64,000 bases of DNA from Dysidea avara (lineage: Eukaryota; Porifera; Demospongiae; Dictyoceratida; Dysideidae), in assembly GCF_963678975.1 (NCBI RefSeq), contig NC_089274.1, positions 33,103,790-33,167,789 of the forward strand, written 5' to 3'. The notes beneath the pieces were generated by a model. That model did no database searches and was not told the DNA's origin. It saw only the letters and a list, made by a program, of their open reading frames with translations. The number at the start of each line of letters is the position of its first letter. Positions within the stretch are counted from its first letter, which is position 1. Position numbers and translations under genes: made by a program. Of this stretch, positions 22,889 to 51,459 are shown piece after piece.

Positions 22889-23223
22889 CCTTTTTTTTTT
22901 TTTTTTTTCCCGGGCTGGATGGACTGCCCTTGCCTACCACCCCCAGCACAAAGAAAGCACGTGCTGGACAACTGAATAAAAAGGACCAGATTGCTAAAAG
23001 TTTAAAAGTCCCTGTGCTCATCAATGCGGCCCATCTCAGGAGAGGCATCAGAGGAGCGATGCGAGATGGACCTATTTCCACGTATGCACATTGTAGCTGA
23101 CCGAAATAGAGAAAAAGACAATGTGCATCGGATAAAAGCCAGAGTCTGACTGTAACTAGTAGAGCCGCGGCGAGATAGATGGTCAGCCAAACGACGGTAG
23201 AAAACTATTGCCTCCCTTCCCAT
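22889..23223 (-). mobile_element. 3' end of the large minus-strand retroelement, separated by an insertion
   Basis: The minus strand encodes MGREAIVFYRRLADHLS, TLAFIRCTLSFSLFRSA and CIRGNRS, followed by a 3' UTR ending in a run of A (T-run at 22889-22908 on the plus strand). It continues the ORF of 24160-26200 in the same direction. The homologous uninterrupted junction can be read at 53797-53830. Confidence 0.85.
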
Positions 23224-24159
23224 TTACATTAACGATATTGTAACAAACATCAAGAGTGAAATTAGATTATTTGCTGACGACATTCTACTCTTTAAAACTA
23301 TAGCTACGCCCAACGATCACAGAATACTGCAAAATGACTTAGATTCCTTAACACAATGGGCTAGCAACTGGCTGATGGAATTTAACATTCCCAAATGCAA
23401 TATTTTACAATTTACAACCCACCACAGTAAAAGCACTTTTACATATAAAATGTCTAATATTCCATTGAATATTGTATCAGAGCACACCTATCTTGGTATC
23501 CGCCTCCATCATACACTACCATGGGAACCTCATGTTAACTATGTTTGTGGAAAGGCAAACCGTCTTCTTGGATTTCTGAAAAGGAATTTATATAATGCCC
23601 CAATACAAATCAAAGAACACTTATACAAACAATTATTGTTACCTTCTATTGAATACTGCTCAGCCATCTGGGATCCTTATCACCAAACAACAGTTAGCAA
23701 ATTAGAAATGATCCAACACCGAGCTGCAAGATTTGTTCTTAATAAACCATGGCACAGATCCAGTCAACAACACAGTATTACAGATATGCTTAATTACCTT
23801 CAATGGCCAAGTTTAAAAAGTAGGAGAAGGAATGCTAGACTTATATTATTAATCAAGATTGTAAGAAACTTACTGGTGCTACCAAACCATTGTTTACCCC
23901 AGCCAACCCCTGTATCATATACTCGTGCCAATAATCCCCTCAAGTTTGCACAGCTGCAATCCAGAATTGATTTATATAAGTATTCTTTTCTGCCAAGAAC
24001 AATTATTGATTGGAATAACTTGAAAATTGACAACATTGACACAATTAACCTTGACACTTTTAAGAACATTATAGATAAGCTAAACAATTTGTGATTTGTA
24101 ATGCACATTAGCGTGTTGCCCCTGGTGGGCTTTGCTAATTAATAATAATAATAATAATA
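23224..24159 (+). mobile_element. 5'-truncated non-LTR retrotransposon (CR1/Jockey/I-like), RT C-terminal half
   Basis: It is inserted between 'cttcccat' and 'acctcca' of the minus-strand retroelement. The ORF gives YINDIV, LFADDILLF (RT FADD box), WLMEFNIPKCNILQF and YLGIRLHHTLPWEPHV. It continues with LEMIQHRAARFVLNKPWHR, SLKSRRRNARLILLIKIV and a terminal WNNL-type motif, with stop TGA at about 24092-24094. It ends in a (TAA)n tract, the 3' tail type seen in several non-LTR clades. No target-site duplication of more than 1 nt is evident. The element starts inside the RT domain, so it is dead on arrival. Confidence 0.88.
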
Positions 24160-26197: not shown

Positions 26198-26199
26198 TG

Positions 26200-26829: not shown

Positions 26830-28118
26830 ATGAAGTCGTTGAAGAAGGTTTTTGGTAAAGAATCAAAATCCGTGTTTGACAGGTATGTATTTAATCTCAG
26901 ATGCCGCCCACCCCATTTCAATCTTCGGCAATCTCCTCAGACAGGGTGGATAAACGGATGAACTATCGCGAGTTTTATCCATACATTAATTAGCTAGGCG
27001 TCTCTTTAGCCTATCAAAGTAATGTGTGTATCTGCTTTAGCTTCGGCTTTAGTAACATTCGTTATCGAGCTCATTCGATGCCGCGGATAGGATGACTGGG
27101 ATGATCAGCTCGATAAACCCTGCTTGAGGGGGCGGGGGCAGCATTGTACTCATCAATAATATTATAGACCTTTTGATTTATCCAGGACAGAGCTACTTAA
27201 AGGACAGCTCCAACAAGTGGAAAAGGACATCAGTTCTAGAAGAGATGAGTCGTCAACTAATAGTGATACACAGGGACTAAGTGAGTTGGAGGCAAGGCTG
27301 AAGCTAATCCGTGAGAAGATAGAGGATTCTAAGAATGACAAAGAAGCAAAGCAACTCAGTACTGCTGTCAAGTCGGCAGTCATGTATGCTTGTGATCAGT
27401 GTATGAGACCCATTGAAGGTACTATTAATGTAAGCTGTTATATTCCGGCTATGGCTATCTGTGTGGTGATCTGATTCATATATCCGGCATGATTGTCTTG
27501 AAGTGACCATGCATGCTGGGGAGAGAACAATCTGTGATGCTGCTTATAAGTACTTCAGCCATATATTCAGGACACATTTCATGTACTTTTATCTCAGGCC
27601 AGTTAGTTACAACTGCATCCATGTGCATGCTCATGTACACATACATACACAGTCAACAAAATTTTTATAGAGAATGATGCTTTCATTTATACAATGCTGC
27701 CGACACCTCATTGTGATTGCAATGGTTACTTGCAGTACCAGTCTGGTACTGCAAAGTAACCATTGCAATATTATATATTTGTATTACTACCAGAGCAGGG
27801 TCAGTAATTGATATAGAAAGTAATAAATGCAGATTCAGTACTTTTAGCAAACTGTTGGCGATAGTTACAATACAAATATATATATAACAGCAATTACTAT
27901 AGTGCATGTACACCAATAGTAAATATTCAATCTATTTGGTATATGGCCACTCTATCACTAGTTTATCCATTGTATTAGCTGATGAGTACCATCATCACTC
28001 ATTGTCACTGGAGAATTTGAACTATGATTTGTGTGAGGGTTGTTACCAATCTATTGATGATGACCAGAAACCGCTCTTCTTGCCTTCTAAGACAAATCCA
28101 TGGACACAATATGCAAAG
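26830..28118 (+). CDS. Reductase gene, exons 1-3: coiled coil and ZZ-type zinc finger
   Basis: Exon 1 starts ATGAAGTCG and ends at AG/gtatgt. Exon 2 encodes a charged helical stretch (LSELEARLKLIREKIEDSKN), then CDQCMRPIE. Exon 3 completes the finger with YHHHSLSLENLNYDLCEGCY. The pattern CxxC ... NYDLCxxC is that of ZZ fingers. The middle Cys pair of the canonical finger is absent, as in the dystrophin-type variant, so histidines near residues 100-102 may contribute. Splicing 27418 to 27979 is needed to bring both halves together in frame. ZZ fingers usually bind protein partners, so a targeting or regulatory role is inferred. Confidence 0.8.
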
Positions 28119-31100
28119 GTACAGATATATATTTCTACTGGAAAATTGTATAAATGTATGGATTTTATTTGTTTGTATTATAGTGTGTACACATACATAC
28201 ATGTTCAGGTAATGAAGTCTAAGACAGTGTGTGAGATGTTGGTGAGAGCTGCAGAGGAGTTTGCTGGATTACCATGTCTGGGATATAGGCAGGTAAACAA
28301 TGGAACACCAGAAAAATCATTCAAATGGTTAGTACAGTGTATGCATGTGTGCTGTATGTGTATAACTATGTGAGGCAACATATAAGTGGCTATAGATAGC
28401 ATCGGCCTGGTAATCAAAAGGTAGGTTCGATACCTGGTTATGTCAATTTGGAGGTGTTGTTGTTGAGCAAGAAACTTTACTCACATTGCTCCAGTCTACC
28501 CAGCTGTACATTGGGGACCTGGTGGCCTGGTGTCATCTGGGAAAGCAGCCCACCCAGATGTAATATCAATACAGCTGTAGGTACTTGGTGTTTACTGGGA
28601 AAGCAAATACCCAACTGTCCTTGTCTTGTTTTAGCGGCGTTGAGGACTTTGGGTTTCACATATACTGCAGGCTACTAGCCCTGCCTAAGAAAGATTTGTC
28701 TGCACAAAGCTCAAGCACCTGAGTGGTGCACAGGTATCCCAGTGCTGGTTCACTGGGCAGCAACTGTCGTAGGCTTTTTTATATGCATTTATGTATGTAT
28801 TTTTTTATTGTATATGTGTGCTATATTGCATGTACACATGCCATTGTAGATGCATACATGTGAATTATGGTACATGTGCTGGGGTCTTGACTGGATTACC
28901 ATCCAGGTCAGTGGTGCTTACCCGGCTTTAACCTCTCTGGGTACATGTATATGTATGTAGTATGTAGAGTGCATGTTGTACTACGTGTGTACACAATTTA
29001 CTGTGTGTATGTGTTAATTTACTATTAAAAATTACATGTGGTACTGTAATAATCACTGTGTTAGGCTTAACCAGAGAGAAACCTTCCAGATTGCACTCTA
29101 TCTAGGAGGAGGTACGTATTTATATACTTACATAAATCATATGTGCAAAGTTCTATGTGTACACCTAATTAGCACTCACTATTTATGAAGTTCTTTGCTC
29201 ATCATAGGTATTCGTAGTTTTCTCTGTCATGAGTTTGATGATCGTGATAAAATATTTGTTGGTGTCAGTGGAGAAAACTCACTTGACTGGTTTATCAGTG
29301 ACTTTGCTGTGTGTCTGCAGTCAATGGTGATTGTCCCCATCCATACTTCACTGGTATGGGACATGTGCTGTGTTATGTGTCTTTGTACAGTCGAGTTTTA
29401 TGAAGGCAACTTTTGTGCTAACTGTACGTGCATGTGAAAAAGTTATAAGGATAATTCTTCGTTGTATCAAGTTTGTTGTAACATGCATCTAACTTATATG
29501 TGACCAGCTGAGCAAAACCAGCCATTTTTGCACATTCATTTTATTCTCCTCTATTTTATATAATAGCAAAGGAGTGGACTACAAAAAGTTTGAGTTTTTT
29601 TGTCTTGCGGTAGACATTTGGAACAGCAAGTAATTTAATTTGCAACGATATGGCAAATAAATTACAGGCACTTGTGTAAGTAATCAGTCAAAATTCACAA
29701 CCGGAACAAGCTACAATGATGGGAACTGGCTAGCTCAATTTGTTCTCCATAAACTTGCAAATCAGTAGTGATATTGTTCCATATGCACAGAGAAGAAGGC
29801 CATTTCAACAAGAAAATGACGATGGCAAACTCTATTTATGCCACATTATAATTATATATGGGTGCACATAACCCATGTGCCTTTTGCTGTATGAACATGA
29901 AACAAAGATTTCTTACTCTCTGTGAACAGGTGAATCTGATTGGTACATAGGTTTAATTGATTTGAGCTTTGTTTGAAGCAGTTAAAAGGTGTGTAAAATT
30001 TTTGTGCGGCACGTATATGTTTACCAGTTTATTTCAATGTATTTTTACAACAACATAGAATTTTGCGACAATAACTGGATTTTGCTCAGTCGGTCACATA
30101 TCTAATTATTTGCATTATTTACACAAGAAAGAAAACTTTGTTGCCAAAATACAGAAACTTCTTCATGCACATACATATAAATAATACTATGTGGAATTTG
30201 GAAGTAAGGTAAATTGGAACTGACACCTATTCTGATGTTGTTTCAATGTCCTAGGAGCGTATTTGTATGCAATGAATCCTTAGCAAGAGTACACTTGTTT
30301 TGTGGTATAAATGATCAAACTGATTCTGTCTGAATAATATACCTCATTTGACAATTCACTTATGTAACGTAAGAATAGTATTGAATACTGAGGATACACC
30401 ACTCTCTGATTTATTCTTATAACTTCTTGCATGTGTACTATAGGACACTGAAGGAATTGCTCATATCATTAATGCTTCTGGTGTGTCCTGTGTTCTTTGT
30501 TCACCGGAAATGTTACCCAAGCTGACTACCAGCAAGCAACGTTGTCCCAGTCTTAAGCTATTAGTACAGCTCAACTCTTGGCCTTATGATCCTTCTGAGG
30601 AAGGTAGAATACACATGGAAGCATTGAGATCTTTCCTTCTGCTCCTTCAAGAATCAAATCAGTTGTCACCTAACAGAGACGTTGATGTCACAAAGGATAC
30701 AAGTAATTTGGAGGAAAACATCATAAAATTTATTCAAAAGATTGCTATGAACTCCCAATCACTTCAGGAAACACTGTTCACTATCTTCAAGCATCACATA
30801 GCGTTGTCACAAGATGCTGGCTTGTTGCAGCACTTTGTAGCTGCTACCCCAGGTCACACAGGAATCCCAGACCTTACTGTGTGTCATGTCAACACTATGC
30901 TAGTACTGTCCTGTATCTATCACTGTTTTGTGATGGGGTGTCTACCCCAACCAATATCTATCAGCAAGTGTAATGATCTTGTTGCTGTAGTCTACACTAG
31001 TGGCAGTACTGGACTTGCTAAAGGTGTGTACATAAGAATATTTGTGCATACGTATATTATTGTAATTATTTGTTTTTCACTCTCATGTTGTATGTATCTA

Positions 31101-34100
31101 CACTATATTAACAGGTGTAACATTTACTAATGAGGTTTGGTTAAAGTATATAACAAGTATGAGGATGTTTGTTGAAGTTCAGATTTGTAAAAGTAAGTAT
31201 GTACATGTATATATGCACATGCATGTATTTTAACTGTGACACATTCTTAGAGTGAATGTACTTTAAGTTTCCATTTGATAGTTAATTACACACTTACCCG
31301 AGCCTAGTATATTGTTTGAATTATTAAACTGATATAGAAATATTGCAACATAATTGAGACCACCATCCTACTCTGATACGTGTATTCTGGGGTTCATGGC
31401 AGAATTGAAATATGGTTGGGTTCCTCATATTATCGAGGTCACCCAAGACATATTTTCCCACACCAATTAGGTTTAATCCACTTTATAGGATAGCCGGGTA
31501 TGACCCAGATTAGATCTTGTGTGGTGATGAATCAATCAAGCTGATGATGTGGATGCCAATATATGTAACTATGCATGTATTGACAATGTACGTGGGCCAC
31601 TACTAGTGAATTGATTTAAAGAAGAAAGGGCGAGCCACAGTCAAGGTGGTGTTTACAGATTAGACTAAGTGCCTTCTTGTAAAGAGGGAGCATATACTAG
31701 TATAACTAAAATTGGAGTGGTTTCAAATTGTGAGCAATTGTGTGGGTAGTAAGAAATGTTAGTACAATGAGCCACACCCACTTATCAATCATTGTTTGGT
31801 AATACATAGCCACCTTTTACCTAAAGCTCTTGCAGGCAATCTTTGCTATATTACAGGGCTAACTACTGCCAACATCACATCCAATATGTAATTCATAATG
31901 CCTCTGTTTGCCATGCCTTTGTTTATTTAAAATAGTTCACATCTGAGTCACATTCGGGTCCCAACTAATATCTGGGTCAGATAAAGTTTTCCCCTCAAGT
32001 ATCATGTACCATATAGTAAGGGCAATGAAGGTGTGGGCGTGGCCAGTGATAAAATATCACCCAAAAACCTGCCTTCATTTTTCTTCACAACAACTTGACA
32101 GTATTGATTGAGCCCAAAAGGGCTTTCAGATTGACCTGAAACATTTCTGTCAAGTTGCTACTAAATTTATATGACGGAATTTTCTACTGCCTGCCTGATG
32201 TGTTCAGTCAAGCATAGTAGAAAACTGGGTACAGCTACAGCCCTACTTCTTTCACAAAATGTTTCAAATTCACTTGGGAAGAAACATTTGGCATATACAA
32301 TGCATGCACTATTGTCTTGCCTTTTATCCTTCTGTACCCGTAGCTACACGTTACACAACATTATGCAATATAGTATTACATAATGCATGTACGCCTGTGG
32401 ACACGTGTTGTAAACATTGCAGTGCTGAGTGAGCTGTCCAATATCATCAGAGACAAGTGTACAAAGTTAACTTAACTACTTGCGTTTCTGAACGTTTGCT
32501 ATATGACCAACACTGTTCACTACAGGCCAGGATCCAGATGAGGAAGTTCTACTCTTTGTAATGATAGACTCCCCAGCAATGTTTCACTGTTAATAGTTGC
32601 TGTAATAGCTTTAGAAGATAAAGACGATAATCATTTTTAGAGGCACTTATCGCAGAAAGATAGCAGTTTCAAGTGATATTTGAAGTATTACTGCTGTAAA
32701 CAAAGGTAAAAGATCTTACAATAAGTGTTTCTTGGACTGATAAAAACTGGTTTTAGTTTATTGAATTGAAGAAAAACTTGTTAGTCCGGCATCTGCTAAG
32801 GGAGGTTCCATTTGAGCCCCCCCAGGATCCATCCCTGCATTAACTGCTTCTTTTGTTTGCTTCATCATTATTCGGATTGGTAGCATTCTTTCCTTCATGA
32901 CTTTCTTTGTGTTTCTTGACATGATGTGTCAAGCAAACCACAAGCTATAATACTATGTATACAAAGTAAGTAAAAGATAACTTGATGAACTTCTAAGTGA
33001 ATATAGTTTGGCAATAATATGTGGTGTGTTATATTAATACCTAATCGGCAAAGATACTGACTACTTGCATATACCTGTATAATATATTGCTGTCATTAAC
33101 TATCTGTTTTGTGAAAAGGGGTCTTCCCGTGTACACATCCAATTTACCAAGCTTTTCATCCATTTAGCAATGTTGGTACTAACTAACCAGATTTGAAGTC
33201 ATTAGTTTCCATCTGTCTGAAGCTACGAATCATTAAAGTTGTTATACAGCTCCTGTGTGGATGAGTGTTAAAGACCTATTTTTTAAAAATCCATTTAGAT
33301 TAATTTGCATTATTATACAGTGTGTTTAGTGGTCATGAACTTGCAGAAAAAATTCACAAACAAGTATAAGAAAAATTAGGAATTTTAAACTAGAGTAGGG
33401 ACAATGTAGTACCACGATAAAAAGTACTGAGATTGGAGTAGTACGTAATGTCCAATTGCTGTAAAAGCAATAAGAAGCCAATTTCCCTACTGTGCATTTC
33501 AATCTTAGCAGCACAGTAGGGATATTTACTTCTTATTGTTTTACAGCAATTGGACTTTACATACAACTCTAATCCAGCTTGTTTCAGTACTTTTTATCGT
33601 GGTACTACATTGTCCCTACTCTAGTTTAAAAATTCCTAATTTTTCTTATATGTACGTGTACTTATAAATTTTCTTTGTGAGTTACTAAAATGTGAAAATT
33701 TGTCTTTTGAGAACTTTCCAGCTGTTTATTGTAATGGTTTTAAATATGTAGATCCAATGGCTCATTTGACTGAGAGGAAGATAGGATATTCAGTGATCAC
33801 TAAGGGAGGAAGGATTGGTGTAATGACCAACTTGAATCTACTGATGGAGGATATTCAGTTACTGGAGCCCACAACATTCTCCACAACTCCAAGGTACGTA
33901 CAATTGTAGTAGTCACTCTTTATAACGGAGCCAAAAGACATTTTGAAACTGCATGTGTTGGCTAGTCATTGTGTATTTATTTTTTATTATTACTGGGCAG
34001 GCAGCTCAGCTGATGTGTGTATATGGAGGTTGTAGTGGTACTGGAGCTATTAGGACTGCACTGTTATGTGCATATATATGTATTTCACATGCATACGTAA

Positions 34101-34515
34101 TTATGTAACAATTACAGATAGCATATTTCTAAGTTCGTGTAGACTTACTTAGTAAAGTGAAACACCCAAGTATAAATGTCTTACCTTACAGAAATTTTAC
34201 AGGCGTGCATCATTTGCAATTGTGTTACATGGTATAGTTACACTGGTGTGTTCTGCTTCAGATTCTTCAATAGACTTTATTCTGAGTATCAACAGTTGGT
34301 AGAGGTTAAGAGGTTACAACTCCAAGCTGCCAACCCTGACTATGATGATGCCATGCTCCAACAGGTACAATGTGACATGTGTGTGGAGGCAATCTTAATT
34401 TGGTCAGGCGACCAAACTTGCAAAAAAATACTGGTGTAAAGATGTCACTTTTTGTCTTAAAAGTCTAGTATGTAACAATATGTGACTGAATTTTTGAAAA
34501 TTGTTAATCTTTGCT

Positions 34516-34588
<73 letters not shown>

Positions 34589-34589
34589 G

Positions 34590-34621
<32 letters not shown>

Positions 34622-37600
34622 CACACTATTGAAGTTGGCTTTTCCCCATGATTGGATAGCCACACTGATACACTCTACATTTAAACCACAGGCATGCCAC
34701 TGAATTGCTCGTGATGCTTTTCACAATGCCAACTCCCTTGCACAGTTGCTCAGATGTTTTCTAAGCGTATCAAGACTCACGGTAGAGTTGCGAGGCCAAG
34801 AAGCACAAAGCGCGCGCCCACAATAAAATAAACACACGACCACTACTGTGAGTCATTTACATGAGGGATCAATTATGCAATCTTTTAAAATCCGCATGGC
34901 AAAATCTCAGGCTTACTAAAAGATTCCACCTCAAAACCAGGGGCATGTAACCTTTGTATAATGAGTAACTACCACACGAAAAGTCAGGTGAATTGTTGGA
35001 GTAGTTTGTTCCATCGCCCACCCATTTACCATGCGTTAATTAAATTATTTATTCAAATGTGCATTGTTCTTTTTTTCATTTTCTTCGTCATCGCATCCCA
35101 TTGAAGCAATTTTCTTTCAACCATGAAGTCGTATTGTAAAAAGGCTGCGGCTATCAGGGGCTTTTTACACAATGTATCTATACATTTAATTTCGTTAAAA
35201 AGTTGTTAGTTAGTTTATGAGATCGCTTTTGTACTCTTTGAAGATTCAAACTTGCCGCCATGACGTCGAGGTGTGGGCACCCGCCTCAATTCCCAAACCC
35301 AAATAGTGTGGAAGTGGGCAAGGTCATTGGCCATGGCAAGCTGGCTGATTTGATAGACACTGTGCTGTCAACTCTTGGTTTAATTGTGAGCAGTCACTGA
35401 TTTGTTTTAATTTCACCACGGTATGCCTCCACTGACTCGTCAGCGTGACTCCGGCCCATGGAGGGCCGTACATAGCTATAGCCAGCTGTTTCATACCCGC
35501 TGTAGTGATACAGTTGAAGTAATTTACTGCTACATTACCCGTGCGCGTCTCTAATCCCACCCCAGCCCTTCAGTGCCTGTGAAACTTCAGTGTTCACTTA
35601 AAAAGCCAGCATCAGCGCATCATCTTTCAGTCACAGCACTTCGTAGACCCTCATGCAACCACCCACAATTATAGAAACTCTTTAATGATAGCATGATATA
35701 TTGTAATAGTAAACATTTACATTATGATGATCCCATAAAATAAAAAATTAAGAATGACTACAGTAGCACAAGAAGCCAGATACACTAGTGTTTGGCTATG
35801 AAGTACCACCAAGAGTTCATAATATAGTAGTGGGGTCTTGGTACCACATATTATTTTTTCTTCACCATTTGTGTGATTTGTCCATTGACCATAAACTCAC
35901 CCTCCAACAGTCACAACATCAGTATTCACCCTGCATATACAGAAAAGGGTACAGTATGGTAAGGCACAGCTAACTAAAAACATATAATCATAGTCAGACT
36001 AACATGTCAACAAACACTTACTTCCACTATTATGATTATTGTTAAAGTGAGCATCCCACATAGCCATTCCCAAGTCAGCATACTGCAGCAATTGATGACC
36101 AATTTTGGAGTATATTACTGGACTTCTTTTTAATTTAGCTTTGACCATTGGCAAACTACAACACTCAACAATTATATCAGAGTATACATAACTCTATATA
36201 TTTGCCCAGTTACTATATAGTAGGCCCATGGTTGTCTCAGATCTGCACATATTATCATCACATCAATCGATTGATGCATAGTAATTGTGGTATACTGTAT
36301 GTACGCATTGAGCTGAGCCCTCAAAAATATTAACTTATTAGTTTTGTAGTATTGACTTACTTGCTAATCATTCAAATGCCTGACACATTATTTATAGCCA
36401 AAGAATTCACCATACATTAGAGGAAGCCATAAAAGTATATAGCCTTATAGCCTTTCCTGGACTGTTGATGGAAGCATTTGTCTGCTCTTGAAAACTTCGT
36501 TGTCATCACCAACCATCTTGTTGGTTGAAATGTTGAGAAAAAATCTTTCATTTTTAGCTGTTTTCTCACTAGGGCTTAGCTCAACTTGTTCGTGGCCTGA
36601 CCCACACAGCTGCTAGAACAAGCCAGCTGCAAGGATCTGGCCTACAAAAGCATAGATATATAATCCCAGGAAGCTACTATGGCGTGGGGATTCCTGTCTA
36701 AAATTATGACGGTAGTTATATATCCGTTTACAATGACTTATACACGAACTCACTCGGCAATTCGCTGGGAGAATAGGGTGATGCATTCAGCGTCTTCATG
36801 TCCATTCTGAGGCATACATTCAGCAACAACTCGCAGCCGATTCGCCTCCACTTGTTACGCACATAGACTAGTTATATCACCAATCCACCGCTTCAGGAAG
36901 AACCATTAAGATGGTAGCCTCGACTTTGTCACTATCCCCGGTTCTTATTTTCACGTGAAACATCACGCAAAATATCATGTGAGTCCTTGAGGGAAATTTG
37001 AACGGTTTGAACAAGTTTTCTCTTAGCAAGTCACTTTTAGTAGCGCTTCTAAACACTGAACTTGAAGCTTTTGCTACTGATTTAGCTAGCTAATCTGATA
37101 CTGAAGCTGTTATTATGCATGTATGTATGCATGTATGTATGCATGCATAATAACAGCTTCAGTATCAGATGTAATATAATAGCCAATCTTCAGTAACTGT
37201 ATGCTCTCCATTCAACACAAAGTAGTGATATCCCGTGCCAAAAAAGCCCAGCTGTAAAAAAAGGTGAGGCCAAGAATGCACAAGTACATGTTCATGGAGT
37301 AACTACAACCAAAAGACATGATACCAAAATCTGGCCAAGAAAGCATTTACAGTATAAGCACTTTTATGCATTCATTTTCTATATGCTTCACATTATCACA
37401 TCCAGCTAGTTGTACATGTGTGCTTGCAATATAAACAATACTACTGAGACGATAAAAGATGATTACACTACATTGTTACCAAAATTAATTTAACTAAAAA
37501 TTTACAATTGGTTTCTACTTGGCCATCTTTTTACACTGTATATTAAAATATAAAGATGGCCAAGTAGAAACCAATTGTAAATTTTTATTTTGGTAACAAT

Positions 37601-40600: not shown

Positions 40601-43600
40601 ACAATTGTTGGTCAAGTCAGAGGCAATGTGTACATTAGGCTACCACAATAATGTTACTCAATCTGCTAGCTCATTTGATGGCGGTTGGTGAGTATAGTTA
40701 ACACTCCGTTTTATTATTATCTGTAAAGCTGAATATTGTAAGTATGCTCTCTGTTCATTAACTCTCGACTCTACAGGTTCCATACTGGAGATATTGTAGA
40801 AGTTGTGGGAAATCGACAATTCAAAATAATAGACAGAATAAAGAATTTTTTCAAACTCTCACAGGTACTGTATCATTTTTATACTTGTTTATTTCATGCA
40901 TGTTTCTACATATATAGGGTGAATTTGCTTCTTCTGAGAAGTTGGAAATCATTTACTTGGAGAGTATATTTGTGGATCAAGTATACATCACTTGTGCAGA
41001 TACTAGCAGGTACGTATCATACACAGTAATTAGCATACAATAATCCATATCCCTGTGTGTATTAGTATTACTGTATTTATATTCAGTATGTGTATACATC
41101 ACATACAGTCTATGTTTATGATGTATGTAGGTATGAACAGAAGGCTGTGTTTGCAGTGGTGATCCCCTCACTGGACTACTTACAAGATAGTCTTGCTGGT
41201 CAAGGTGTGGAGGTAGCATCACTTGATAGTACTGGCTTGTGTGCACTGAGGGAAGCTGTGAACTTGGTAAAGTGATTAATGCACAAGTGTAACTTCCCTA
41301 CAATCATGTATCGGTTAGATATTGGTAAATTACATAAGCCAAAAAGCATGAATATCGTCTAAGCTTGAAAATTCAGAATTGGTTCACTCTACTATGCAAC
41401 TATGTAACAATAATATACTTTAGGAGATGTGCATACTTTATTTATTTAAAGTTGTTACATGCATGCAGTGTCACAGGTATGCTTCTAGATTTGTTACGTA
41501 TCTATATCATACTTATGTTATGAGTTGTATGTATTCTACACTTGTACAAAGGTACATGCGTATGTTAATAATATGTACTGTACTGCGTTATTGACATATA
41601 CTTGTAAACATATATGCAGGTACACTCTGATCTCGTAAGGATTGGAAAGGAAAAGAAGTTGAGAGCATTTGAGGTTAGGTCACAGTATGATAATATGTTA
41701 TATGGACACTGTCTGGTTATATAGATACCCCATGCTGTTTTGTTGGACCCAAAACCTTTCACTGTTGAAAATGGTTGTCTTACATCATCAGAAAAGTATG
41801 TTAAGATTATGTGTGCATGTGTGTATTGTCTCAAGTCATTTATAGCCCAAGAATTTAATTCTTTGTATCACCTTTTTGCCCATACCACTAATCTAGGAAT
41901 TTTAAGTTCAAATAGAGATCATTATACGGTACGATAGTACTGTATAGTAGGGACCACAAAGGTTTGGGCGTGGCCTTCAAAACAATCACTCAAAAACCAA
42001 CCTCAATTTTCCCTGAAAACGATGAGGCAGTATTGGTTAGGTACCCCAAAGAAACTTTCAGATTGACCTGAAACACTTTTAACAAGTTGCTACGGAATTT
42101 TTTTTAAAATTATTAATAAATATAATTTTCTACTGACTGACCCGTTACACAGTATTATAAACAAGAACAGTATGTATCGGTTTGCACTGAAGGCACTGTT
42201 GGGCTTGATTATACTTGACCAATACTGCCAAGGCACCATAAAAGTTTTGTTTATGAGAAAGTGCATGATCCTTAATATGCAGTACTACCATACTGTATGA
42301 TACTGACAACTATGCGAAACTGGCGTTTATACAAGACCAGTATTCTCTTAATCATGCACTTGTAGTCTACTTCATATCTCTATGCACTGCCTTTAATACT
42401 GTTTTCTTCAAAATACTTCAATTACAAAGGATAGTTTTACTTTACTATTAATGGTACTGTACAGAATCGTGGTGACTACACGGCATGTTAATTTGAAACC
42501 TGATGGTTACAGAAACAGGTATCTGGCAACATAGGTGGGAGACAGCGCTGTTATCTATGTAGGTCAGTGACTAAACTGAAATATGTAATAATATTTTGTT
42601 AGCTTTGTGATAAAATGTATGGTGCAGCATAGTATATGCACTGGTATGTATGAAATTTCCAAATTGCGCAAATGTATGTTAGTCATTCTCAAGAAACTTG
42701 CAACTGAGTCCCCTGGAAAATATAAATGGCTAACATTCCACTGTGAATGCAGTAGCATATGGTGCGTAGGAAGCGTGGGTGCTTGGGCACCCATGAATAT
42801 TTCTAACTAATCAGAATCAAAATCAGTAAGGCAGTATCATTCTTTCTATTCTAACTTGCCAGTGATTCCATCTGCCTTGATCTGACTTCAACCATAATCC
42901 ATAGGCTTAAACAAAGGTGCTGTACAAGTGTATTAAAATAATAGAATACAAGTCCGCTCGTAAAAGATCGAGATACTCTAATAGAGCAATCATATACCCT
43001 AATAAAATAGTCAAGAATAGCATTATTATAAGCAGTGATTTAACTGTTTATCAGTTAATATCTATATTCTAAACAGATCAGAGTTGCTGATTCCACCCTT
43101 CAGTAATGCGACTAGAAATTCTTTGGAGATGAAAATCAAGTTACTCTTATTAGTACTGTAGTAGGGCACCCATAAGTTAAATATCTTCCTACTCCCCTGG
43201 CATATATATGGTGCATACCGCTCAAATGCAACATTATCTCGTGAAAGTGCAAGCAATTAAAAACTCAATAATGAAAGGGCATGGCACTCATTTCGCTCTT
43301 GGATATTCATCCCAAACGAAACAGGATGAATACTTGCATACGAAATGGGTGCCACGTCCTTTAATTAACAAGTTATAATCGCTTGCACTCTTGTGAAATG
43401 ACATTGCGTTTAGGCAGTACCACACATGGGACATATACAGGTAGTAGAAGTTATTAGTTATAATGTTCAATTGACTAAATGTCAAGTGGTTGCTCTATTA
43501 GAGTAATTGAATGTTCTGTTAGGACAGTTGAGGGTACCTGTGTTGTATAAATACACTGTTAATGGTGATTATACACAGAACTTCAGAGATACAAACTGTT

Positions 43601-44711
43601 TAGTTATCCAAAAACTGAATGGTCTGTATAGAATGTGTATAGCTATTACAGTGTGGTCAAGCCTCTGTTGTATTTGGCTTAGAAATGATTTTTTCTGTAT
43701 ATACCTCATATAAACCTTTGCTAGTGTTCAGGGCTTAAAATAGTAGTGTTAAACTGTTGGCTGTACACAACCAATGTACCTACGCATTACCTGTATCTAG
43801 AGACATACATACATACATATACGTATATTACACTGTAGAATTGCCAGAATTGCTCTACAAAAGAAGTACCAAGAGAAAGTGAATGAATGTGTTGCAGAGC
43901 TACTGGAGCAAGAAAAAAAGTCACACACTGCTAACATCCAGTCGCTAATTGCAAAGACTCTTCAGCTAAATGTTGATGTTACGTCTTCAAACCTGTCAGG
44001 TATTGTGTGACAAATTCCTTAACAATTATAAGTGCTATCTTGTATGTAAATTTTGCTATGCATAATGAACGCTGTTATAGTATTCGTATATGCATTTTGT
44101 GATATGTATGTAATCATTTGTGTGTAGAAAAATAGTTTCTATTCATCTCTTGTTAGGGAAAACATTTGTAGAACATGGTGGAGACTCACTGACCGCCATG
44201 CAGTTTACTGCAACAGTCAAGGAACTATTTGGAGTTAATTTAAATGTTGATATGTTACTGTCCTCTGATTTGTCATTGGATCAACTCAGAGACTTAATCA
44301 GTGACCATACTAGCATTAGTAGTGGCAAGGATGACACTTTTGATCTTATGAAGGCTGATATGGAACTTGAATTACCCAATTTTAATAGTCCTAAATCTGT
44401 GACTGTACAGGCTAGCAACAGTGTCTTTTTAACAGGTGTGTTTGTGTAGTGTGTGTTTGTGTAGTGTGTGTAGTGTGTGTGTGTGCGTGTGTGTGTAGTG
44501 TGTGTGTGTTTGTGTAGTGTGTGTTTGTGTAGTGTGTTTGTGTGTGTGTGTGTGTGCACGCGCATTGTGTGTATGTGTAGCATGTGTGCGTGCGCATGTG
44601 TGTGTGCGTGTATGTAGTGTGCACGTGTGTGTTGTGTGTTGTGCATGTGTGTTGTGCGTGTGTGTGTGTGTGCGTGTGTGTAGTGTGCGCGTGTGTGTTG
44701 TGTGTGTGTGT

Positions 44712-44742
<31 letters not shown>

Positions 44743-44746
44743 TGTG

Positions 44747-44832
<86 letters not shown>

Positions 44833-44878
44833 TAGTGTAGTGTAGTGTGAGTATGTGTGCGCGTGCATGCGTGCGTGC

Positions 44879-44920
<42 letters not shown>

Positions 44921-44937
44921 TACGTATGTGTAGTGTT

Positions 44938-44993
<56 letters not shown>

Positions 44994-47900
44994 TGTGTGG
45001 GTGGGTGGGTGGGTGTGCGTGTGTAGTGTAGCATAGTGTGTGTACGTGCACTACCTATCTGTATATACAGAATGTACTACTATACCTGTGAGAATTTGCA
45101 GTTTTTGTGTCTGTCATAAACAATTGCAGCATTTCCTATAGACATTGATCCTATGCTGTTTTACAAAAATGTTTAGCTACAAGGTTGTCATATTCCTTTT
45201 TCTAAACAAGATGTTTATCTTACTTGATTGTGAATATTTACCCATCATCATTTAGGTGCAACTGGATTTTTGGGCTCATTTTTTCTCTCTCAATTACTGT
45301 TGAGTAGTGATGAAGTTGTAGTCTATTGTTTAGTGAGGTGTAGCCAAGAGAAAGAAGGTATGTACATATATAGGCAATTGGTAAATGAACAATAAGCTTT
45401 ATTGTGTTCTGTACAAATGTGGTACATAATAATTGTATATTTCTAATTTTTCATGATTCAATAAAATTTGTGGTATTTCTTAGAGTTAATGTATTGGGCC
45501 TTTTGCAACTGTTGCAACTTAAAAAAATTGTTGTTCCTCTGGCTATGTAATCATTACAGTTTGACTCGTCTATTCATATATTTCCACAGCAGAGCTATTA
45601 CCGTAGATTGAATGTTTAATTGTCAAATCATTTATTGAAGTATATAGTACTAGTGTGATTAATTTAAAACTGAAGTAAAGTTCAGAAATAAAAATTGATG
45701 AAACAAGATATGAAAGGTCGCTATATGGGAAAATCCCTACATTGGCATGTTTTCACCATCTGTTTGATGCCTAAGTGGGATTTTACCACATGACTATCAT
45801 CATACAGTACGGTAGTACTGTATATTAAGAATCATGAAAAACTGGACTTTTCTAGCCGAAAATATCACCCTAAATCCAGCCTCAATTTCCCTTCACGACA
45901 GCTTGACAGCATTGGTTAGGCACAGCTAAGCCCAAAAATGTCTTCAGACCAACCCAAAATCCTTCTAGAACGTTTGTATGGAATTTAAAATAATTTCTGT
46001 TAACAGAAGAAATTTTTATGCTGACTGACTAACTGACTAACTGACTAACTGATGCTTCCCGGCAGCCAAGCTTAACTTGACAATGGATAAGGCTACTGAC
46101 TTGATTTCTTCACTGCTTCATCCCAATATGTGTCTTTTTGCCAACTCAATACACACATCATGGACTTGCCTTTGTCCTCCTTTGTGTTCCAGTTCCTTTC
46201 ACTGACAATGCAAGGTGTTGATTCATGGCAATAATGTGATGCAGCTTCCCTGTGGCTGTGTTGGTTAATCGCCCATATTTTCCGTATCATATGGATTGAT
46301 TGCAGATATGCTTCTTGTACTGTTCTTCGTTTGTAACGCTGTGTAACGGGCGGAATGTGAAAACAAAGTGTAATGGCCACCTCCCTTTCCTTATATAATT
46401 GGTCGTTGGGGTACGCATTCAAATGTAAAATTACTTTTATGGTATTTCTGGTGCCATTCTTTCTTTTAATGTGGTATGCGCTGTCATAATTATGTTTAAT
46501 ATACTAGTATATAAAAAATTATTAATTTAAGAATGAAGTAGAGATCCAAGTGATAAAAATTAGTGAAACAAGAGACAAGAGATGAATGATGGTATTACAG
46601 CATAGCTTGGTGAGAAAATCCCTACATTGGCATGTTATAACAACAATGCCACAGTAGGGATTTCCCACCAACCTATGCTGTAATACCATCATTCATCTAT
46701 TGTTTCACTACTTTTCATTGCTTGCATCCCTAAAAATTATTTTTAATATACTAGTTTGTTTGGTTTTTTGTTATGCTATACATGTGTGACTGTTCTATTA
46801 AGGTGACTGCTGTATTAGAGTATCTTGAGTCAGCCTTTCACCTACCAGAGGCGTGTCACTATCAGTATAGCTATACCTATAATAACAGTGTGTCATCATG
46901 ATTGAGTAAATAAGATTGATAAGAGATGTGGTCTTGGTGCTCTATCGTTATTAATCAACGATCACATTAATAAGCATGGTATTGAACCTATCATGAAGGT
47001 ACAGGTATCTATCTACCAAGCGTAAGCGCTTAAATAAGTTTGTGATGCCTATTAAAATACGCTGCTCAAAGAAAGTGTTGATATGGAAAATTAACACCTC
47101 ACTATGGTTTCATTGCATGAAGAAGAATGAAGACCAGCCTGATTGAAGGATAAAAGGAAAGACAAGGTGCAAAGGGCACACACTTGTCAGAACCCCTAAA
47201 GGCACACCCCACTGGTGAGTTTGTTATTGTGGCGTAAAGTGATGGCAGTGCGCTGATTCATTTGGCCTCCAGCCTTGCGACTGTGGTTAGGCAGGCAGGC
47301 AGGCTGGTGGGTGGGTGAGCAAGCAGGCAGGCAGACAATTATTTTTTTAAATTCTATATCCGACCACCTGTGATTGTTTTCTTGTTTTTAATGCTGTATT
47401 TGATGTTAGATGGACTAATATTATTCCGCGAAGGGAATTTTGTTGCATAAGATGTTTCTAGGATGATTTTTAAAGGTGGAATTTTAGGCAGCACATGTCA
47501 TTTTTGGGAGATCCCTACTTAGACCCTTTTGGTGGTGAATTTGGTGGATTTTGGAGGTGTCTAAGTTACTTAGACCCTTTTCATGTTTACTTAGACCCTT
47601 TCATGTTTACTTAGACCCTTTTCATGTTTATTACGTACACCCGGACTGGTAGCGTTGGCAACGCATCGTCACCTGAAAATTAATTTTAAACAGTAACGGG
47701 TGGAGTAATGGCTTGTTTCTACTAATGAACGCTACATTTCTCTGTTACAAGCAGCTGTCAACAATGTTAAGGTACAACAACTACATAAAGGGTCTAAATA
47801 ACTTAGACTTCAGACCACAGGGGTCTAAGTAATTTAGTAACCCTCAGGCCCTGTAGTAGCGCCTTCACTTCGCTCAGGCGCCACGACACAGGGCCATCGG

Positions 47901-50018
47901 GTTACTAAATTACTTAGACCCCTGTGGTCTGAAGTCTAACTATTACTTAAACAGTACTACTGTACTGTTTGATTTTTAAAAAATTAGAAATTTTAGAAAT
48001 AGGAATCAAAGAAAAAAGGTAGTGAAACAAGGGAATAGTTTAAAAGTAGTGAAACAAGGAAGATTGCCTATACCTACAAATATACTTGTGGACATTTAAT
48101 CCCTAATTCATAGATTTTATGTCCGCTAGCTATATCTGCAAGTATAGGCAACCTTCCTTGTTTACTACCTTTTTTTCTTTGGTCCCTAATCCAACTTAAA
48201 ATTTCTAATTTTTCTTCTACTTGGCATTATACAGTAAGTGCAGTTATATCTATCTATTTTCCCTCTTAGTGCTTCAAATAGTCTAGTGACATCAAAATAT
48301 GCTCCTCTAAGGAACATGTCAATATGTAAAATTAATGCCTGTGTAGTTGTATGGTTTTCTTGCATGAAGAAAAGGCACATGCCACCCACGAATTTGCTAT
48401 TGTGGGGTATGAAATAGTGGCCATGTACTGCTTCATGCACAGCTTCATTTGGCTTCTTGCCTTGCAGGTGGGTGGGTGGGCGGCCGGGCGGGTGGGTGGG
48501 TGGGCAGACAGGCAGGCAGGCAGACCAAAAAACTACTTTTTATAATTTCAATATCGGGGCATTTGTAAGTGTTTTCTTGTTTTTAATGCTGTTAGATGCA
48601 CTGAGACTATTCTGTAAAGGTGATTTTCATCACATATGATATTTCTATGGTGGTTTTTAGTGGTATATGCCATTGTGGCAAGTGTTGTTCATCTTAGGGA
48701 AAACCCCAGTACTAGCATGCTGTTTGATAAGTACACAAATAGTTATCAATACATGATCTTCGGTTCATCCCTTTTCCTATTCTAACATGAACAGTTAGTA
48801 ATATTTAGACCACAGCAAGGTGAAATACTTGAAATTCATTGGCTACTTACAGGTATTTAAATCCTGTAGATCCCTTGTTCATGTCTCAATAGATCCCTGT
48901 CTCTGGGGTGATACAAAACACGGTAATTACGTGCCTGTAACATTGGCAACACATGGGCGTTTAGCAAGTGCAGTAATGTGCATTACAAGTTACAGGGAGG
49001 TGTATTGGGCTTCTTTAACCCTCGTGTCACAAGCAGCTGTGAAGGTACAACAATGAGCTGTGGTCTAAATTAGTTAGACATCAAAATACAGGGTTCTACG
49101 GAACTTATAACCCTTGGGCCCTGTAGTAGCGCCCTCGCTTCATTCGTGCGCCACACAACACAGGGCCTTTCGGGATTCTAAATTCTGTAGAACCCTGTGT
49201 TTTGATGTCTAACTATTATGTAGATTTCACACAGACAGTAGTGTAGGGCACATGCATTGTGTGGTTACATTATACATACAGGTAGTAGTATACAGACACA
49301 ATGCATACAGTATATAAAAATTGTACATACATACTTACATGTGCATTAAATTTTTAGGAGTTTCCAAAGTAACAGACTACCTGCAAGGTTATGGTTTACC
49401 AACTGAGCTACTCAGTACTCGTGTTAAGATTGTGTGTGGTGATTTGGAGCAGAAGTACTTTGGTTTGGATTACATGGTCTTCCAGCAGTTAGGAAATTCC
49501 ATATCGCAAATCTATCATTTTGGAGCCCACGTCAACCACATATTGGGATACAGTGCATTAAGGTGATGCACGTATAACACTGTAGATGTACATATGTGAA
49601 TGTAGTACTATGTGTACATATGTGCACACGGGATCCACTTTGCACATGGTTTAGTATAATGTGTTTTATGGATAGGGCACCAAATGTGGTAGGTACTGTT
49701 CACGTGCTGGAGTTGGCATCACTTCACAACACTCCACTGCACTTCATCTCATCCATTAGTGTGATGGATAATGTTGGGTAAGTATTTGTATGTCCATACT
49801 GATGGGCACACGTAAATGTATATTTATAAATGCATGTAGATCAACCCCAATACCAGAAGTGGAGTGTTCTGCAGTACCTGTGGAGGCTTTAGTTAGTTCC
49901 TGTGGATATGTCCAAACAAAATGGTAATGTTACGTATGTACATGTCTGCTGCTTTATGTGTAGTGTTTGTGTGCTAGTGTGTGTGTATGTGTGTGTGTGT
50001 GTGTGCTAGTGTGTGTGT

Positions 50019-50057
<39 letters not shown>

Positions 50058-50113
50058 TGCATGTTTGTGTGTGTACGTACGTGCGTGTGTGTATGTGCGT
50101 GTGTGTATGTGCG

Positions 50114-50193
<80 letters not shown>

Positions 50194-51459
50194 GTGTCTA
50201 GTGAAGTATGTATACATGTGTAATGTGTGTGTTTTTAATGTGTACATATGAGCTTCAATCTGGTATGTCTTATATTATTTTTAGGGTATCAGAGTACTTG
50301 GTATGTCAAGCCAGAAAACAAGGTTTACCAATTGCAGTTTACAGACTTGGTATGATCAGTTGGAGTATGAAGAATGGGAAAGCAAACAAGGTAAGTAGCA
50401 CACACCAAAATTATCACTTTGTAGGATTTGTACCTCACATACATATACATAATGTAGTTACATTCCTATTGCATATTATCTCTCTTTCTACATAATATTT
50501 CCTTGTGATTGGGCTTTCACAGATTTTGCTCACTGAGCTATGTATCTTGACAATTCATACATGTCTTATACTCTGATATACTATATCTATAGTCGTTGTG
50601 CTATATAAATACAAATTACATGTATGATTGTGTATACAGAGAGATTGGCTGTATCGACTTATTCATGGTATAAATGAAATGGGTGTAGCACCTCAACCAA
50701 TGGAAGCCAGTGTCTCACTACTCCCTGTTGACTGTCTAGCTAAGAGTGTTGTGGTCTTGTCTCAACTTGTGACCTCTAATGGTTAGTGTTCAAGTTTTAT
50801 ATATATGTGTGCACTTATACATGTGTAGGTATTAATATATAACAGTATGTACGTATGTGTGCATGGTGTTGTTGCAGACCATTATTTCAGTGTTTTAGTT
50901 ATCAAAGGCATAGATGACTACTTTCAAAAGTATTTTATCAGAATCTCCGAATGAGAATATCTGCCATTATATTTTTCCACATCTGTTTGCCTCAATGCAT
51001 GTATATATTAACTGCTGTTGCATTGTTTATTAACTTGGACATACATGCATACAATATGTAGTTATGTAACAGTGTTGTCATGCTTATTTACCAAACTTTT
51101 CTATAGACAATTGGGGAAAGATATTTCATCTCACTAATCCAAATAATGTAAAACTGAGGGAAATGTTTCAATGGATTGACACCAGCAGGAACACAAAAGA
51201 TCAGGAAACACTCAAGATGGTCCCATATTCAGACTGGTGGAATATGTTACAAAGGGAGATCAATGATGTACGATCTCTAGACCTCAGCAACCCCAAACAC
51301 AAGAACAAATTAGACAAACTTTCTGGTCTACTGTTGTTTAGTAGTGGACTACCCAACAGTAAAATGTCTTATGTACTAGACAACAGTGTGAAGATTGATG
51401 GAATACAATATCCTCGGATTACTGAGAAGTCCTTTATTAAGTTTATTTCTGCTGAATGA
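26830..51459 (+). CDS. Carboxylic-acid-reductase-like enzyme (ZZ finger - adenylation - carrier - thioester reductase), 28 exons
   Basis: Exons: 26830-26882, 27186-27418, 27979-28118, 28209-28327, 29065-29111, 29208-29353, 30444-31023, 31115-31192, 33722-33893, 34262-34364, 40030-40096, 40153-40246, 40385-40498, 40586-40687, 40777-40864, 40918-41009, 41131-41266, 41620-41673, 41725-41795, 43839-43999, 44157-44435, 45256-45357, 49358-49562, 49676-49777, 49840-49923, 50285-50390, 50640-50781, 51107-51459. They sum to 4023 nt, giving 1340 residues, and every junction is phase-consistent with GT/AG sites. Order: basic N-terminus and coiled coil (1-85), ZZ finger (86-120), ANL adenylation domain (about 145-830), carrier domain with Ser894, extended-SDR reductase (about 975-1340). 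Expected reaction: acid + ATP to acyl-AMP, thioester on the pantetheine arm, then NADPH-dependent release as aldehyde. Bacterial carboxylic acid reductases have the same A-T-R order at about 1170 residues but no ZZ finger. Substrate and location are unknown; no signal peptide is seen. The exact acceptor of exon 9 (33722 or later) is the least certain junction. Confidence 0.93.
27716..27769. repeat. Hairpin palindrome in intron 2
   Basis: attgcaatggttact and agtaaccattgcaat flank an inner palindrome (gcagtaccag/ctggtactgc). It is almost perfect over 54 bp. Confidence 0.8.
28209..41795 (+). CDS. Reductase gene, exons 4-19: adenylation (ANL/AMP-binding) domain
   Basis: Motifs in order: FVGVSGENSLDWF (exon 6), ATP-loop VVYTSGSTGLAKG (end of exon 7, residues about 429-440), PMAHLTERKIGYS and GGRIG (exon 9), EGYGCTEI (exon 12, about 603-610), FHTGDIVEVV (exon 15), and DRIKNFFKLSQGEFASSEKLE across exons 15-16. 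The last contains the hinge and the F-K-L-x-Q-G-E-F lysine region characteristic of long-chain acyl-CoA synthetase and CAR-type enzymes. Exon 7 (580 nt) is the longest and includes a less conserved, probably surface segment between residues about 290 and 390. Intron 10 (34365-40029) is 5.7 kb and filled with repeats. Confidence 0.92.
28385..28780 (+). mobile_element. tRNA-derived SINE
   Basis: The head contains 'agcatcggcctggtaatc' and 'ggtaggttcgatacctgg', the anticodon-arm and B-box (GGTTCGANNCC) portions of a tRNA-like promoter. A body of about 300 bp ends near 'ctgggcagcaactgtcgtagg'. It lies in intron 4, with the same orientation as the gene. Confidence 0.6.
31410..32400. repeat. Repeat-rich part of intron 8
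   Basis: Contains 'gaggtcaccc'/'gggtatgacccag' blocks similar to 28900 and 6430. It also holds a copy (about 31990-32170) of the dispersed family with 'gtgggcgtggcc', 'cacccaaaaacc' and 'cagattgacctgaaac', shared with 41950-42110. Confidence 0.45.
33361..33657. repeat. Palindromic MITE in intron 8
   Basis: Arms of about 135 bp meet near 33495-33510 ('ccctactgtgc'/'gcacagtaggg'). The right arm ends about 65 bp before exon 9, so the element sits right beside the acceptor. Confidence 0.85.
34516..34626. repeat. (CA)n microsatellite
   Basis: About 110 bp of nearly pure CA dinucleotides in intron 10. Confidence 0.9.
35260..35385 (+). other. Candidate first exon inside intron 10
   Basis: An ATG in a strong initiation context (gccgccATGacg) opens a 42-codon frame, MTSRCGHPPQFPNPNSVE to DTVLSTLGLI. 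It ends in phase 0 at a good donor (ATT/gtgagc). The surrounding 200 bp are richer in CpG than the intron. I could not find a downstream exon. It may be a nested gene, an alternative start, or a relic promoter of a mobile element. Function unknown. Confidence 0.3.
36290..36585. mobile_element. Diverged copy of the 3151-3536 MITE, reversed
   Basis: It shares 'gttgaaatgttgagaaaaaa' and terminal 'gagctgagccctcaaaaa'/'agggcttagctcaac' with the copy at 3151-3536, in opposite orientation. Confidence 0.6.
37093..37170. repeat. Perfect hairpin around a gcatgtat repeat
   Basis: atctgatactgaagctgtta and its exact inverse flank tandem 'tgcatgta' units. The 78-bp unit can fold fully on itself. Confidence 0.85.
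37235..37840. repeat. 606-bp palindromic (foldback) element in intron 10
   Basis: The arms meet near 37537 ('ggccatcttttt'/'aaagatggcc'). The outer ends are 'gtgccaaaaaagcccagctg' and its inverse near 37820-37840. The arms are nearly identical over about 300 bp. Confidence 0.88.
39297..39915. repeat. 619-bp palindromic (foldback) element in intron 10
   Basis: The outer ends are 'atatcctaaaacaaaa' and the inverse 'tttgttttaggatat'. The centre is near 39590, and the arms contain 'gactggtaagagcaa' and its inverse copies. Exon 11 starts only 115 bp after it. Confidence 0.85.
40316..40370. repeat. Tandem duplication before exon 13
   Basis: Two copies of 'agcatactgcatgtactg' plus 'tatgta' sit immediately upstream of exon 13. 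The adjoining 16-mer acagtaaagcaacatt at 40302-40317 recurs inside exon 13 at 40409-40424. Confidence 0.7.
41796..43838. other. Intron 19, repeat content
   Basis: Holds a copy of the dispersed family at 41940-42130, the 'actctaatagagcaatca' motif at about 42972-42992, a palindrome at 43211-43424, and an inverted motif copy near 43490. No exon is needed here, because exons 19 and 20 join in phase and the protein reads through. Confidence 0.6.
43211..43424. repeat. Imperfect palindrome, about 85-bp arms
   Basis: 'gaaagtgcaagcaattaaa' and 'gggcatggcactcatttcg' are mirrored by 'cgaaatgggtgccacgtcc' and 'cgcttgcactct' to the right. Confidence 0.7.
43839..44435 (+). CDS. Reductase gene, exons 20-21: linker and phosphopantetheine carrier domain
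   Basis: Exon 20 carries IARIALQKKYQEKV and a helical linker. Exon 21 opens with KTFVEHGGDSLTAMQF, where GGDSL holds the serine (about residue 894) that receives the 4'-phosphopantetheine arm. The protein must therefore be activated by a phosphopantetheinyl transferase. The helical hairpin VKELFGVNLNVDMLLSSDLS is typical of carrier domains. The intron starts directly with a (GT)n tract. Confidence 0.92.
44436..45040. repeat. About 600-bp (GT)n microsatellite starting at a splice donor
   Basis: Intron 21 begins gtgtgtttgtgtagtgtg immediately after exon 21. It continues as imperfect then pure GT repeats to about 45000, followed by gggt units. Confidence 0.95.
45256..51459 (+). CDS. Reductase gene, exons 22-28: NADP-dependent thioester reductase domain
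   Basis: The Rossmann glycine motif LTGATGFLGSFFLSQLL spans the exon 21/22 junction (residues about 975-990). VKIVCGDLEQKYFGL and IYHFGAHVNHILGYSALR follow in exon 23, and PNVVGTVHVLELAS and HFISSISV in exon 24. The catalytic YVQTK (Y1136, K1140) is in exon 25, RLGMISW in exon 26, DWLYRLIHGI in exon 27, and an ordinary C-terminus in exon 28 with stop TGA 51457-51459. This matches thioester reductase (extended SDR) domains that release aldehydes or alcohols from carrier-bound acyl chains. Confidence 0.93.
45800..46500 (+). repeat. Longest copy of the dispersed 'cccaaaaatgtcttcag' repeat family
   Basis: Its order of blocks matches the shorter copies at 1560-2330, 9340-9600, 31990-32170 and 41940-42130. 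It contains a (gactgactaact)n run at 46022-46051. Confidence 0.5.
46540..46725. repeat. Palindromic MITE
   Basis: 'gatgaatgatggtattacag' and 'gaaacaagag' on the left are mirrored by 'ctgtaataccatcattcatc' on the right. A related half copy lies at 45690-45790. Confidence 0.75.
47803..47939. repeat. Palindrome of copy A, GC-rich loop
   Basis: The arms 'ttagacttcagaccacaggg' and the inverse enclose 'ggccctgtagtagcgcc...acacagggcc'. Confidence 0.85.
47981..48212. repeat. Palindromic MITE between the two copies
   Basis: 'aattagaaattttagaaat' and 'ggtagtgaaacaagg' on the left are mirrored by 'ccttgtttactacc' and 'aaaatttctaatttttc' on the right. The centre is near 48100. Confidence 0.75.
49073..49213. 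repeat. Palindrome of copy B, same loop as copy A
   Basis: The arms 'gttagacatcaaaatacagg' and the inverse differ from copy A, but the core 'ggccctgtagtagcgccctcgcttc' (truncated match) is shared. Confidence 0.85.
49964..50190. repeat. (GT)n microsatellite in intron 25
   Basis: GT-rich repeat of about 225 bp between exons 25 and 26. Confidence 0.9.

Follow-up and report, generated by a model that had tools for sequence, protein, structure and literature searches.

A sponge gene predicted to encode a carboxylate reductase of adenylation, carrier and reductase domains behind a ZZ-like zinc module

A 64,000-nucleotide stretch of the Dysidea avara genome (C3:33103790-33167789, hereafter the window) carries on its forward strand, at 26830..51459, a 28-exon gene that joins a ZZ-like zinc module to adenylation (A), carrier (T) and reductase (R) domains. 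The gene and the fusion are real, and the prediction of an A-T-R enzyme is sound. Judging from sequence, we consider it likely that the product is a working carboxylate reductase of a eukaryote with a docking-type front module, and we infer from the same source its activity, cofactor, product and what the module does. Bacterial type I carboxylic acid reductases (CARs) come closest to the A domain, and the terminal reductases of NRPS/PKS systems to the R domain; a mixed origin therefore appears more likely, though not proven, than a simple line of descent from a CAR of bacteria.

Gene structure and a second copy

The coding sequence (4023 nt, 1340 codons plus stop) runs from exon 1 at 26830-26882 to exon 28 at 51107-51459 (+) without an internal stop, and its introns are GT-AG in 27 of 27 cases, as read by eye and checked by script. 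A preliminary description of this DNA had proposed 28 exons joining in phase into 1340 codons and a series of motifs in a fixed order; the splice-site script and a second copy of the gene bore out the former, and every motif was found in its stated order. In a phmmer search of the PDB the best matches were bacterial CARs, colinear over residues 423-1275 (E 3.1e-73), which together with the stop-free second locus argues that the gene model is not a random assembly. Exon 1 (26830..26882), which supplies the ATG start and 17.7 codons, is the least certain exon: it is placed by phase only, homology searches lend it no support, and the second copy yielded no counterpart. Exon 2 (27186..27418) encodes a charged stretch and the first cysteine pair (CDQC) of the ZZ-like module, and is backed by a Pfam match below cut-off, by codon score and by the second-copy exon at C3:29885191-29885420; to the eye, the charged stretch looks coiled-coil-like. 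The second half of the module, NYDLCEGCYQ, lies in exon 3 (27979..28118), followed by the adenylation domain in exons 4-20 (28209..43999), the carrier domain in exons 20-21 (43839..44435) and the thioester reductase domain in exons 21-28 (44157..51459). In a codon-usage test of low power, 0 of 78 stop-free non-coding stretches reached the score of exon 2 and 7 of 694 non-coding stretches scored as high as exon 4; the same test was weak for exon 3 (28/451) and for an extra stretch of the A domain (3/19). Intron 3 (28119-28208, 90 nt) is stop-free in frame, and exons 3 and 4 share an open frame (27903-28373, +), so that translation could pass straight through; were this intron retained, the link from the ZZ-like module to the A domain would be longer by 30 residues.

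The second locus lies on the minus strand at about C3:29859731-29885420, on the same contig and 3.2 Mb from the window gene. A protein search of the sponge's own genome (550.8 Mb, 108 contigs) gave at least 39 matches, all in these two loci on C3 (35 of 46 candidates were scored), and a search for a paralogue within the window gave only chance-level matches. Exons 2-28 of the second copy contain no internal stop, and 708 of 1301 aligned residues (54.4%) are identical to the window protein; 17 of the 27 exons have the same length in both copies, while equal phase is not a free result, the model of the second copy having been built with the window's exon phases as a condition. Silent substitutions between the copies exceed replacements (dN 0.362, dS 1.614). 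The protein was divided into ten parts, and pN/pS stays under 1 in all of them, at 0.35 for the A core, 0.48 for the R domain, 0.50 for the ZZ-like part and 0.54 for the additional stretch of the A domain; these ratios are rough because dS is saturated in two parts. The comparison supports the gene structure, the length of exon 7 and the presence of the front module. Contamination is rejected, as the earlier description had also held, because both copies, diverged from each other and rich in introns, sit on a single contig of 50 Mb.

Domain order and catalytic residues

Pfam placed AMP-binding at residues 210-668 of the window protein (E 4.2e-41), PP-binding at 864-923 (8.9e-7) and NAD_binding_4 at 975-1212 (3.2e-55). 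The order A, T, R, as first described, holds in both copies with all three domains above the Pfam cut-offs; in the Pfam check that the preliminary description had proposed, ZZ was the one family to fall below. No condensation or ketosynthase domain was found by Pfam in the window protein. CAR-type alignment of the A domain extends to about residue 850. Exon 7 gives this domain an additional stretch (about residues 313-420), which is 47.5% identical between the copies. The interval from residue 285 to 424 measures 139 amino acids in the window against 58 in the median of the CAR loci listed (81 longer). Overall, the window protein is 25-26% identical to four CARs.

According to PMC5826065, changing His237, Glu433, Ser595, Tyr844 or Lys848 of NcCAR to Ala abolishes activity. 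All five of these residues are present in the window protein, as His480, Glu714, Ser894 (the phosphopantetheine serine of GGDSL), Tyr1136 and Lys1140; they are kept in the second copy and invariant in all 82 bacterial CAR loci tallied among the 84 listed (L027 and L038, with A and R in different frames, were dropped from residue tallies). The R domain further contains TGATGFLG, which fits TGxxGxxG, at residues 976-983, and GxxNxxD/E at 1172-1178. In the second copy PxxH reads SxxH, with Pro changed to Ser and the His kept, and in the A3 motif the window has Ala where four aligned CARs have Pro. The same paper gives Phe after GE (SxGEF) and an A10 Lys as bacterial marks, and Lys after GE and an A10 hydroxyl as fungal ones; with Phe715 after GE and A10 Lys830, the window protein lies outside the fungal CARs (types II-IV) on these marks.

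Different affinities of the A and R domains

Profile models put the A domain nearest to the CARs: taken alone it scored 220.7 bits with the CAR model and 126.6 with the next. The whole protein reached 368.5 bits with the type I CAR equivalog NF041592, short of its cut-off of 1300. In phmmer searches the A domain reached 67.5-153.2 bits against the 84 CAR loci listed and 44.7-72.1 against five acyl-CoA ligases. The R domain pointed elsewhere. With the thioester reductase model TIGR01746 it scored 273.2 bits alone and 270.2 within the whole protein, above the cut-off of 213.35, while other models gave the isolated domain 186.3 (MxcG), 185.7 (L-aminoadipate reductase, Lys2) and 111.3 bits (CAR). 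Phmmer gave 142.9-190.3 bits against 12 NRPS/PKS loci and 135.9-157.8 against four more, compared with 56.4-95.7 against the 84 CAR loci listed. Mean identity of the window R domain was 36.0% to the 12 NRPS/PKS R domains and 28.6% to 27 CARs, the latter below the 30.3% between CARs and NRPS/PKS. The domain is up to 41% identical to bacterial NRPS R domains (121 plasmid records listed with an R match), and it matched PDB 8aep, which we take to be the R domain of NcCAR, at only 68.4 bits. Among phages there were only two weak R matches (25.5%), and six peptide patterns confirmed no relatives in viral contigs.

Trees divided the two domains in the same way. In the A trees, which used 27 of the 84 CAR loci listed and were flagged for long branches and odd amino acid composition, the window grouped with CARs at 97/89 support and both copies did so at 99/88. 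In the R trees, flagged likewise and built from 27 (a first tree whose bootstrap had not settled) and later 15 of those 84 loci, both copies fell inside the NRPS/PKS R group (97/95), and the best trees, with the window alone or with both copies, placed the sponge R domain outside the CAR clade. The AU test retained a grouping of CARs with the window (p 0.453, 0.056) or with both copies (0.213) for the R domain, as well as a place for both copies just outside the NRPS/PKS group (0.207). These trees cover bacterial CAR, NRPS/PKS and acyl-CoA ligase sequences, with no fungal, Lys2 or other animal ones; CAR sampling took the best 80 of at least 437 genome-contig relatives, a partial and mostly actinobacterial set, and the NRPS/PKS sequences were chosen plasmid matches, 12 at first and later 16. 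Similarity and the best tree together make a mixed origin the better reading, though not a proven one. The CAR identity first proposed for the protein suits the A domain and the layout, and is doubtful for the R domain, which scores far better with NRPS/PKS thioester reductases than with the R domains of CARs.

The gene might instead simply belong among the CARs of bacterial type, transferred or retained, whose R domain has merely evolved less than those of bacterial CARs. The A-T-R order, the CAR signature residues and the A-tree grouping would all fit such a history, and the AU test leaves room for it in the R tree; the R domain itself argues the other way in its identities, in its phmmer scores and in the grouping of both copies, and we regard this history as doubtful, if still a serious contender.

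Distinctly unlikely, in our judgment, is an acyl-CoA synthetase-like or NRPS-like enzyme of the Lys2 or ebony kind, loaded with an amino or fatty acid and using its R domain for some other release, which would be no general carboxylate reductase. Consistent with it are the score of the R domain alone with the L-aminoadipate reductase model and the AU test of the A tree, which keeps a placement with FadD acyl-CoA ligases (p 0.243 for the window, 0.476 for both copies) or with NRPS A domains (0.269 and 0.135); in addition, PMC10531068 documents animal NRPSs as well as Ebony and AASDH. The whole protein, however, reached only 192.7 bits with L-aminoadipate reductase model TIGR03443 (best stretch only, 910-1278), under a cut-off of 1030.1, and its A domain scored 64 bits with amino acid adenylation against the 220.7 with the CAR model. 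Moreover, phmmer with the A domain found no match in 11 of the 12 NRPS/PKS loci and 14.2 bits in the remaining one, though 10 of the 12 contain an A domain by profile.

The N-terminal module

The ZZ family PF00569 scored 15.7 bits over residues 85-123 of the window protein and 20.4 bits (E 4.4e-4) in the second copy, both below the Pfam gathering cut-off of 21.4. The module reads CDQC, 19 residues and NYDLCEGCYQS in the window, and CNQC, 18 residues and NYDLCGVCYQS in the second copy, so that the first zinc site of a ZZ finger (CxxC plus YDLCxxC) is present in both sequences. The second zinc site of a ZZ finger consists of an inner CxxC and two histidines; this inner CxxC and the later histidines are absent from both copies. 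We rejected a hidden exon that would restore the site, as intron 2 contains no phase-keeping exon of 20-250 nt with a CxxC. The best solved matches of the module were the ZZ fingers of BIG (E 8e-4) and then PRT1 (0.018), and it shares CxxC...YDLCxxC and the flanks with ZZ fingers (PF00569; BIG, PRT1; PDB 9lgs, 8zgb). We read the module as a ZZ derivative with one predicted zinc site; on the motif evidence, the ZZ label is right for descent and not for a full ZZ.

The fusion of this module to the enzyme is real, since the second copy retains it: ahead of its A domain, tblastn and the exon model both show one exon with CxxC and another with NYDLCxxC. The N-terminal fusion of the preliminary description has therefore stood, while its full ZZ finger has not, and the separate zinc-finger gene that it had offered as a possible refutation is rejected on account of the open frame common to exons 3 and 4 and of the same two finger exons in the second copy. 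For these two reasons it is very improbable that the finger exons belong to another gene and were wrongly joined here, even with exon 1 supported by phase alone.

Genomic setting

Upstream in the window is an exon resembling glutamate carboxypeptidase II/III (M28) at 8300-8638 (-), with best PDB match 3fec (E 2.8e-12); ORFs at 12150-12539 and 13954-14241 (-), which have no Pfam match, are by eye perhaps further M28 exons. Just upstream of the A-T-R gene are two reverse-transcriptase-like ORFs (24139-26199, -; 23201-24094, +), both below the RVT_1 cut-off. Its large introns hold inverted repeats (37240-37832, 39408-39791 and 33371-33643) with arms of 249, 65 and 60 bases that are 92-95% complementary, possibly non-autonomous transposons. 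Downstream, at 58392-59451 (+), an ORF of 227 amino acids overlaps one of 161; neither has a Pfam match, and they may be a transposon or a new gene. No RNA genes were found in the window, and none of the ten window ORFs scanned could be recognised as a pathway partner. Elsewhere in the genome, NAD_binding_4 matches with most of the domain in one open frame occur at C3:32864048-32864608, C10:12940254-12940844, C10:12931164-12931766, C4:20098246-20098845 and C12:19360563-19361099; these five loci may be retrocopies or fatty acyl-CoA reductases without introns.

Predicted reaction and product

In the reaction that we propose, the A domain would use ATP to activate a carboxylic acid. The carrier, once phosphopantetheinylated at Ser894, would accept the acid in thioester linkage, and the R domain with NADPH would release it reductively as an aldehyde or take it onward to the primary alcohol. 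The N-terminal stretch and the one-zinc ZZ-derived module would form a docking or assembly piece, with no catalytic part. The phosphopantetheinyl transferase family PF01648 gave 0 matches in the genome in an exon-wise search, which a split gene may escape (10 of 14 control genomes were positive).

In SrCAR, Asp998 limits reduction to the aldehyde. Both sponge copies have Gly at this place (Gly1163 in the window, counted in the 5msp alignment). Among the 82 CAR loci listed and tallied it is Asp in 65, Gly in 7, Asn in 5, Ser in 3, Thr in 1 and a gap in 1, and among 12 NRPS/PKS R domains Gly in 9, Asp in 2 and Thr in 1. The catalytic triad has Ser1105, at a place where the same CAR loci have Thr (76) or Ser (6) and the NRPS/PKS R domains Thr (10) or Ser (2). 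The Gly weakly suggests that an alcohol is as possible a product as an aldehyde. However, a fungal and a bacterial CAR are reported to reduce aldehydes themselves (PMC10168641), so this residue does not decide between the two products.

The boldest version of our reading would make the protein a lineage-specific animal chimera, with a CAR-type A domain, an NRPS/PKS-type R domain and a one-zinc ZZ front kept in two copies, acting as a stand-alone four-electron reductase from acid to alcohol, docked through that front to a partner in a host-made pathway for natural products or lipids. We hold this version as tentative, and as a whole unlikely.

Discussion

With bacterial type I CARs (NiCAR, SruCAR; NF041592; PDB 5msc, 5mso, 5msp) the window protein has in common the A-T-R order, the PxxH His, SxGEF, the A10 Lys, GGDSL, TGxxGxxG, YxxxK and GxxNxxD; it departs from them in an R domain that is not CAR-like, the Gly at the Asp998 place, the ZZ-like front and the longer A stretch. 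Its R domain passes TIGR01746 as do NRPS/PKS terminal thioester reductases (MxaA, PDB 4u7w), but unlike NRPS/PKS systems the protein has no condensation or ketosynthase domain, and its A domain is of CAR/acyl type. The A-T-R layout and the triad Ser are shared with fungal CARs (types II-IV, NcCAR), whereas the window protein has Phe rather than Lys after GE and keeps the A10 Lys.

The characterised CARs tabulated in PMC5826065 are bacterial and fungal, and a coral fragment is named a hypothetical carboxylic acid reductase in PMC2980464. Animal NRPSs are surveyed in PMC10531068, the main text of which makes no mention of sponge, Porifera or zinc, and animal-encoded nonribosomal enzymology is already in print, to go by a title cited in PMC12833800. 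We found no characterised animal CAR in the literature searched, a partial coverage that is no proof of absence.

If active, the enzyme would let the host itself convert acids into aldehydes or alcohols. The genome has at least two resident copies of it, and their conserved front, regulatory in appearance, is missing from the bacterial enzymes. It would also add a new protein to the question of two- versus four-electron reduction, and would offer a concrete way to test whether A-T-R enzymes are assembled in animals by the mixing of domains.
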